A DNA stretch of 40,521 nt from Prochlorococcus sp. AG-335-I21 (GTDB lineage Bacteria > Cyanobacteriota > Cyanobacteriia > PCC-6307 > Cyanobiaceae). Location: positions 1-40,521 of the forward strand of contig QBZO01000006.1 in assembly GCA_003282225.1 (NCBI GenBank), written 5' to 3'. Below, piece after piece: positions 25,110-27,050 of the stretch. Both the position numbers and the translations under genes were made by a program. Under the pieces are notes generated by a model. That model searched no databases. It was given only the letters and a program-made list of their open reading frames with translations, and was not told the DNA's origin. Numbering within the stretch: the stretch's first letter is position 1; each line of letters begins with the position of its first letter.

Positions 25110-26657
25110 TTAGATTTTTTTGATTAATTTCCAAGGAAATATAACTTCATTCTCATAAATAATTTTAAAGGAGTCATCTTTTTTTTGATCTTCTTTTGGC
25201 AAGATGGACCAAGCTAGCTCTGATGTTTTTAAACTTTTGATGCTCTCAATTCCTTCTCCTAAATTAGGTGTTAGAAGAGCAATCCTAATGATTTTTGATT
25301 GTGAAACATTATTTATAATGCTGCTCTTGTCAACTTTAATTCGTCGACTATTGATTGTTTTCAAAGAAGAGATATTTTCCATAGTTTCTCTTAGTTCTCT
25401 CGAGCGGTCTGTAAAAAGACCTGATTGCAAAAAACAGGATGTCATTAAATAGGGTCCAATTATTAAAATAGATATTAATGTAGAGGTGCTTTGAGTTTTT
25501 TTAATAAAAGTCCAAGCTAAAGCAAACAGTACTAATCCACTAATTAAGAATGTATTCTCTTTGACATTAAAACTCATATTAGATTTGAATACGAAAAAAT
25601 AGATAAAAATTACTGAGACCAAAAATAATGGAATTATTCTTGAAGATACAAAAACAAAAATAAATTTAAATCTTTTTTCTTCTATTAAATACTTAAGGCC
25701 TATAAAGGCATTTAGGGATAATATTGAAGAAATTTGTAAAGGATAGTAAGGCGTTTTTGTGGAAAAACTACTTATCAAGATTATTAAAATTAAAGGGAAA
25801 TAAAATAAAATGAAACCTTGAGAATTTTTGCTTTTTAAACCATGAACTAATCCAATAATGGAAAATATGCTCCATGGGAGGAAAGAGACTGGGATATTCC
25901 ATAAATAGTAGTAAAAAGGATTTGTGAAAGTATTATCTTTAGATAAATTATTAAATTTATCTAGAAGGTGAAAAACAATATTTTTATCAATAAATGTATT
26001 TATAGAGGTTGTCCACCAAGCGAAGGGAGTAAAACCAATTATGAATCCAAGCCAAAAATATTTTGAAGTAAAAATATATTTTTTTTTAATCAGGTAAGGT
26101 AATAATGAAGTAATTGGTATCGCAACTAGAAAAGTCTTCATCATAAAAGCTAAACCGATCCAAAGCCCAAAAAGAGATATGTAAAATGATTCTTTTTTAC
26201 TGGTTGTTTTTACAATGGAAAATATTCCAATAGTTACTAGACAACTATAAATTAAATCTTGAGTAGCTAAATGAGAATAATCAAACCACAAAAAACTTGT
26301 AGAAAGAATAAGTGGTGATGCGATTGCAAACTTTTTACCTATTAATTCTTTATGTAATTTATAAGTGATGATTAACATAACTATTGATGAAATAGTTGTT
26401 GGTAAATAGGCTGCGAATAAATTTGCCCCAAATATCTCTTGTGATTTGGCAATTAGAAATTGTATACCTATTGTTCTATCTAAATAAAAATCTCCCCACC
26501 ATAAAGGAACTGTCCAATTTCCTTTTTCCAATATCCATCTAGCCTGTAATGCATAAAATCCTTCATCATAAGCTAAGTAACTTCTTTTACCAAAGTAGAA
26601 AATTAATGGAAAAAATATAAGTAATTTTAAAAAAAATTTGAAATTAATTTTCAACAT
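25110..26657 (-). CDS. ArnT/PMT-like (GT39-type) membrane glycosyltransferase
   Basis: 515 aa multi-TM; 'YLAYDEGFYALQARWILEKGNWTVPLW' motif of GT39/ArnT-like enzymes. Confidence 0.85.
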   Translation of the reverse strand: MLKINFKFFLKLLIFFPLIFYFGKRSYLAYDEGFYALQARWILEKGNWTVPLWWGDFYLDRTIGIQFLIAKSQEIFGANLFAAYLPTTISSIVMLIITYKLHKELIGKKFAIASPLILSTSFLWFDYSHLATQDLIYSCLVTIGIFSIVKTTSKKESFYISLFGLWIGLAFMMKTFLVAIPITSLLPYLIKKKYIFTSKYFWLGFIIGFTPFAWWTTSINTFIDKNIVFHLLDKFNNLSKDNTFTNPFYYYLWNIPVSFLPWSIFSIIGLVHGLKSKNSQGFILFYFPLILIILISSFSTKTPYYPLQISSILSLNAFIGLKYLIEEKRFKFIFVFVSSRIIPLFLVSVIFIYFFVFKSNMSFNVKENTFLISGLVLFALAWTFIKKTQSTSTLISILIIGPYLMTSCFLQSGLFTDRSRELRETMENISSLKTINSRRIKVDKSSIINNVSQSKIIRIALLTPNLGEGIESIKSLKTSELAWSILPKEDQKKDDSFKIIYENEVIFPWKLIKKI

Positions 26658-26684: not shown

Positions 26685-26756
26685 TGCCGATAGTTTGAAT
26701 TGAATAAATTACATGCTGCTAATGAAACAGTTGCTGTCCCGTTGAGCCACATCGGC
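26685..26756 (-). tRNA. tRNA-like element, CAU anticodon, degenerate (pseudo-tRNA or divergent tRNA)
   Basis: Minus strand GCCGATG-TG-GCTCAACGGGACAGC-A-ACTGT-TTCATTA-GCAGC-ATGTA-ATTTA-TTCAATT-CAAAC-TATCGGC-A; 7-bp acceptor stem, canonical arm spacing, G18G19, U33, TTCAA T-loop; 17 of 21 stem positions pair; no encoded CCA. Confidence 0.6.
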
Positions 26757-26810
26757 GATATTAAATTTTATTTTTTTCATATAGACTTAATTTTATATTT
26801 TAAAGAATAA

Positions 26811-27050
26811 ATGTCAAAAATTGACCCTGAATTAAAAAAAAAATTACTGAAAGAGACTCAGGCTCCATTCAAAGGCTTAAGAAGAATACTATGGATAGCT
26901 TTCTCTGGCTCTGCTTTTTTAGGCCTTCTAATAATGCTTGCTAATATTGCTGGTGGAAATGAAATACAGCAAAATAATCTTTTAATACAACTAGGAGCTT
27001 GTGCATTATTTCCTATCTTATTTTTCCTCGATAGAAATAAGGAAGATTAA
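26811..27050 (+). CDS. DUF3493-family (LPA3-like) small membrane protein
   Basis: 79 aa; 'LLKETQAPFKGLRRILWIAFSGSAFLGLLIML...FFLDRNKED'. Confidence 0.75.
   Translation: MSKIDPELKKKLLKETQAPFKGLRRILWIAFSGSAFLGLLIMLANIAGGNEIQQNNLLIQLGACALFPILFFLDRNKED

Follow-up and report, generated by a model that had tools for sequence, protein, structure and literature searches.

The 72-nucleotide element at positions 26685–26756 of the window, i.e., the whole 40,521-nucleotide stretch of Prochlorococcus DNA analyzed here, is very probably a pseudogene derived from the resident tRNA-Thr(CGU) gene, which would have been made redundant by an island-borne copy of the same tRNA; the gain of that copy and the redundancy are steps that we infer. 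An earlier note, made from the letters of the window, had described a degenerate tRNA-like element with a CAU anticodon and had offered three options, namely a decaying tRNA, an unusual functional tRNA, or a tRNA-like structure reused as a processing signal or small RNA. The features of the region are the following.

26685..26756, minus strand: tRNA-Thr pseudogene, anticodon formerly CGU and now CAU (RF00005 match, intact orthologues, lesion comparison)
26811..27050, plus strand: DUF3493 gene (PF11998, Low PSII accumulation1 / Rep27; Pfam 68.3 bits), the synteny anchor
25110..26657, minus strand: PMT_2-type membrane glycosyltransferase gene (Pfam 71.3 bits), whose 4-fold divergence of 24.4% is the neutral yardstick
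26790..26817, minus strand: likely promoter of the former tRNA gene, TTGACA-16 nt-TAAAAT (11/12 match to the consensus, pattern only)
26757..26810, no strand: upstream spacer of 54 bp (comparison with the pseudogene by Fisher test)

The fold of the minus strand (26756–26685) was reproduced at the coordinates originally proposed, with 17 of the 21 stem pairs formed and the same four positions broken. All seven pairs of the acceptor stem are present, one of them as G-U, while the D stem retains three of four (C13-C22 is broken), the anticodon stem four of five (A27-C43 is broken and one pair is U-G), and the T stem three of five (A49-C65 and A53-C61 are broken). As first described, the anticodon reads CAU, CCA is not encoded, and there is a U at position 37, where the intact gene has A. 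A search with cmscan under permissive filters (251 bases) matched RF00005 to the minus strand of 26685–26756 over the full model (positions 1–71 of 71) with 32.6 bits (E = 2.4e-5), which is above the Rfam tRNA gathering score of 29 bits; the Infernal check suggested for the element thus gave a hit over its full length. The same model was missed at the element by the Rfam fast filters at the gathering threshold in a scan of the whole window, and ARAGORN called no tRNA there. The end-to-end RF00005 match, together with an intact tRNA gene in the syntenic spacer of relatives, places the tRNA likeness beyond chance. The full cloverleaf that typifies functional bacterial tRNAs is nevertheless lacking, given 17 of 21 pairs, a T stem with three of five, and the negative ARAGORN result.

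Searches with the spacer, first in 61 and then in 267 genomes, located the syntenic site across Prochlorococcus; the DUF3493 gene served as the anchor for finding the site in other genomes. At this site between DUF3493 and PMT_2, all 26 of the aligned intact loci carry an intact tRNA with the anticodon CGU, and wherever ARAGORN was run on intact old sites it returned tRNA-Thr(cgt). By pattern search, 203 of the 267 genomes of the genus have a copy within 3 mismatches of the intact gene, mostly at this site; for the nearly complete genomes the count is 80 of 87. Of the other 7 nearly complete genomes, four have a more diverged intact copy, one has the gene cut off by the end of a contig, and two lack both the gene and the DUF3493 anchor. 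Since intact copies are this widespread and most of them lie here, tRNA-Thr(CGU) is, on these sequence matches, near-universal in the genus and the DUF3493/PMT_2 site is its ancestral home. Subtracting the 11 carriers of a second copy described below from the 203 leaves about 190 intact old sites, of which 26 were read in the alignment and most of the others as matches. The two genomes in which neither tRNA-Thr(CGU) nor the DUF3493 gene was found are G190 (99% complete) and G146 (95%), by real deletion or by an assembly gap. In a further genome, G173 (L067, L120), only a few tRNA-like bases are left beside DUF3493, a gene other than the usual glycosyltransferase follows, and the rest of this assembly (89% complete) yielded no CGU copy.

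Judged from sequence, the element is what remains of the resident tRNA-Thr(CGU) gene and not a Met/Ile2 tRNA. The Met/Ile2-type identity read from the CAU anticodon is at odds with the intact tRNA-Thr(CGU) gene found in the same spacer of about 190 other genomes, while the guessed resemblance to tRNA-Thr was well founded: the parent is tRNA-Thr(CGU), and CGU becomes CAU by the single substitution of G35 to A. As expected of a pseudogene, the element has an intact tRNA gene as its homologue at the syntenic site. The intact gene of the ancestral type (e.g., L010, G022) agrees with the window copy in locus, length and collinear sequence; in contrast, the L010/G022 gene has a full cloverleaf, 64.9 bits in Rfam and the anticodon CGU, whereas the window copy has 16 differences, four broken pairs and CAU. 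Counted on the alignment with the intact consensus, these 16 differences are 8 to A/T, 6 to G/C and 2 neutral, and so no A/T bias is apparent in the decay, contrary to the A/T-biased mutation that had been invoked. A G-to-A origin had likewise been supposed for all three A-C mismatches. Comparison with the intact orthologues bears this out for A53-C61, but A27-C43 and A49-C65 arose by U-to-C changes on the 3' side; C13-C22 reflects a G-to-C change. The missing CCA is unremarkable because the intact orthologues of the genus do not encode it either.

The gene at the old site is broken in the window and in nine relatives (G015, G116, G182, G122, G115, G117, G114, G121, and G106), and ARAGORN detected no tRNA at the old site of the window or of the first eight of these. 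The genome of G015, one of those with a wrecked old copy, has 1,657,990 bp; its old site is at about 1,434,145–1,434,216, and the island copy described below at 818,172–818,243. The eight share the site and the wrecked state with the window, but G015 and its sisters differ from it in their lesions, which include deletions in the D arm or the anticodon stem, and in their anticodons. Among the damaged copies the anticodon is CAU, CGU, AGU, UGG or AUU, 14 to 17 of the 21 pairs are left, several relatives have single-base deletions, and the broken stems differ from one relative to the next; disabling lesions of stem and anticodon which vary by lineage are characteristic of a pseudogene. With 17 pairs, the window copy retains more than any other damaged copy except that of G119. 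The old-site tRNA-Thr of the latter genome (L066:1375-1446) has 19 of 21 pairs with two mismatches in the acceptor stem, is still annotated as a tRNA, and looks like an early stage of decay. In G106 the flanks resemble those of another lineage (G022), and the old copy is broken differently from those of the window's clade. Because G106 and G119 share few of their lesions with the window's clade, decay must have occurred more than once.

It is extremely improbable that the element is an unusual functional tRNA with a CAU anticodon, reading AUG, or AUA if lysidinylated. Its CAU, intact acceptor stem and complete length of 72 nucleotides would fit such a role, but CAU is confined to the window and G121 among the damaged copies, and these two differ at position 37 (U and G, respectively) and in their broken stems. 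Two pairs of the T stem are broken, divergence is neutral, and a Thr-type body with a CAU anticodon would risk the insertion of Thr at Met codons. The range of anticodons and broken stems at the broken sites also speaks against this option, as does an intact CGU gene elsewhere in all but one of the relatives with a broken site. Function as a tRNA of the Met/Ile2 type was rejected on the ancestry from tRNA-Thr(CGU), the broken T stem and the neutral divergence.

The neutral divergence was measured against the neighboring genes. Between the window and G015 the element differs at 18 of 71 positions (25%), while 4-fold sites differ by 24.4% in the glycosyltransferase, 23.1% in infB, which lies beyond the DUF3493 gene, and 26.1% in DUF3493; a second glycosyltransferase further downstream has a lower value, 13.3%. 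Thus, the purifying selection that typifies a functional tRNA is not seen, and the rate of change is that of a tRNA pseudogene. Where the gene is intact (26 loci), the tRNA is better conserved than either spacer, with 4.1% divergence compared to 21.7% upstream and 40.8% downstream. The order is different in the nine genomes of the window's clade, with values of 23.4% for the element, 3.3% for the upstream spacer and 21.8% for the downstream one. To assess the retention of structure, an equal number of substitutions was scattered at random on the intact gene and the pairs kept were counted. No significant excess of retained pairs resulted in any of the 10 damaged copies (P = 0.26 for the window and 0.46–0.91 for the other nine), and so there is no sign of kept structure of the kind expected in a tRNA-derived regulatory or leader RNA. 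One shared double change, G52-C62 to U52-A62, is present in most of the window's clade; it may predate the decay, and stem retention otherwise remained at the random level.

These results bear on the possibility that the fold has been kept as a processing signal, a leader structure or a small RNA for the glycosyltransferase gene, which starts 27 nucleotides downstream of the pseudogene in the same direction, such that the element sits in its would-be leader. Two damaged copies still exceed the Rfam gathering score, and in the damaged clade the promoter-like site and the upstream spacer are conserved, with 2 of 54 spacer positions differing between the window and G015 as against the 18 of 71 in the element. 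However, the element diverges at the synonymous rate with its stems kept at the random level, different stems are broken in each relative, several have single-base deletions, and the conservation of the spacer can be explained by the promoters of the two flanking genes. Reuse of the structure, as originally offered, therefore found no positive support and is very unlikely. Rather, the upstream spacer is probably still constrained through the promoter or promoters of one or both flanking genes. A similar promoter-like site lies at the same place in all 28 of the old-site loci in which the upstream spacer is covered. Its -35 box, TTGACA, runs into the DUF3493 start codon, being the reverse complement of ATG TCA A, and this overlap is kept across the genus. 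Decay of a real tRNA, in contrast to the other two options, agrees with the intact syntenic orthologues, the varied lesions and the divergence at the synonymous rate.

A second copy of tRNA-Thr(CGU) was found in 11 genomes among the matches listed (G015, G010, G012, G106, G114, G116, G117, G119, G121, G122, and G182). Its loci (L056:5173-5244, L057, L058, and L121-L132) lie in genomic islands at strain-specific places, and an independent scan of GTDB r220 contigs recovered nine of the same second-copy contigs, matched by their lengths, and no others. ARAGORN identifies it as tRNA-Thr(cgt), and it scores 77.3 bits in Rfam in G015, G010 and G012, the three in which it was scored. The sequence is identical at 72 of 72 positions in ten genomes and at 71 of 72 in G106; since its flanks vary freely while these 72 nucleotides are nearly the same, the second copy should be under selection or have spread recently. 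It adjoins tRNA-Met in G015, G010 and G182, and is located some 4 to 9 kb from tRNA-Thr(GGU) in G116, G117, G121, G012 and G106, most with tRNA-Tyr alongside. An upstream block of up to ~2 kb is common to 10 of the 11 listed carriers, while G119 shares only ~110 bp around the tRNA. The motif TATTAG occurs on both sides of the second copy, ~110 bp apart (L122:9541-9700, L128:9559-9720, L130:9933-10090), and the sequence shared by G119 stops about at these repeats, which may be the limits of a moved unit or A/T-rich chance. Tentatively, tRNA-Thr(CGU) might move from island to island in high-light Prochlorococcus, possibly within a unit of ~110 bp that has TATTAG at each end, with the core gene displaced at least three times independently (in the MED4-like clade, G106, and G119), a proposal that we regard as doubtful. 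A cyanophage source was sought, and the only matches were generic ones to tRNA-Thr, which did not exceed 87% identity and stopped at the ends of the tRNA; among 398 genomes of the family, no donor within 1 mismatch was found other than carriers of the same genus.

Another possibility is that the element is a tRNA fragment (att site) that a mobile element left behind when it integrated or was excised. In these genomes tRNA genes border islands and are known attachment sites (PMC2784084), but the element spans the whole tRNA length, is collinear with the intact orthologues that remain in place, and has conserved genes on both sides. Neither an integrase, a foreign insert nor an island junction was seen at the pseudogene site or among its neighbors, and Phage_integrase occurs in only 2 of the 11 listed carrier genomes, on contigs other than that of the second copy. 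An attachment scar was rejected, as a partial (3') tRNA at an island junction would be expected and the element is of full length with no junction; the probability that it is such a scar is minimal.

The association between the two copies is what points to replacement. The old copy is damaged in all nine of the listed carriers in which the old site is assembled, G119 included, and every genome more than 80% complete with a damaged, recognizable old copy also has an intact second copy. Decay of a tRNA gene after it becomes redundant is a known kind of event. We propose that the island-borne tRNA-Thr(CGU) arrived first and would have rendered the resident gene redundant, which would then have been freed from purifying selection and could have decayed independently in several lineages. 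This order, gain first and decay second, is the simplest reading of the association and of one intermediate, G119. For the window's own genome, replacement would mean that the island copy is, or was, present in the 41% of the cell's genome that is unassembled: searches of the assembly (59% complete) found neither the second copy nor its island, and the tRNA genes read from it include none for Thr. The element itself would have no role as a tRNA now, and might still be transcribed from the old promoter within the leader of the glycosyltransferase mRNA.

Alternatively, the gene could have been lost without replacement, tRNA-Thr(CGU) being dispensable as tRNA-Thr(UGU) can read ACG. ACG is rare, as the larger ORFs of the window use it for 25 of their 495 Thr codons, and tRNA-Thr(UGU) could read this codon by wobble, which makes simple loss possible for the window's genome. 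In keeping with this, the second copy was not found there or in G115 (65% complete), where the old copy is likewise damaged, and the nearly complete G190 and G146 show no CGU gene, but they are also without the DUF3493 anchor. Against this, almost all of the nearly complete genomes in the genus retain one intact CGU gene, and recognizable damaged old copies in the more complete genomes are all matched by an intact second copy. On balance, simple loss is unlikely, and replacement by the island-borne copy is the reading that we favor.

Two known systems offer a comparison. As with other bacterial tRNA pseudogenes and redundancy-driven changes of the tRNA set, exemplified by a tRNA gene that is reported to have arisen by duplication in an experiment (PMC7661048), the gain of a copy would alter selection on the existing gene. 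In Prochlorococcus, by contrast, the new copy is located in a variable island and it is the old one that decays, across natural strains. Among the tRNA-bordered islands of marine picocyanobacteria, one is situated at tRNA-Met in MED4 and other strains (PMC2784084). The replacement copy is similarly found in variable regions beside tRNA-Met or tRNA-Thr(GGU)/Tyr genes, but here the tRNA gene, whole and functional, is carried within the island as cargo and is not an attachment site at its border. A literature search for a tRNA-Thr pseudogene in Prochlorococcus returned a sole match, which concerns plant plastomes, and the main text of the paper on MED4 non-coding RNAs (PMC2518516) mentions neither tRNA nor the coordinates of the element. 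This instance of tRNA decay appears to be undescribed.

For the annotation of Prochlorococcus genomes, the element is a warning that tRNA pseudogenes can exceed the Rfam gathering score. From the intact gene through the early damage in G119 to the advanced decay in the window's clade, the strains would form a natural series in which a single-copy core tRNA is replaced by a copy in a variable island, and Prochlorococcus is among the most abundant and the most streamlined of free-living bacteria. If the copy does move as a mobile cassette, a near-universal core tRNA would depend on a variable island, and island turnover would carry a translation gene with it.
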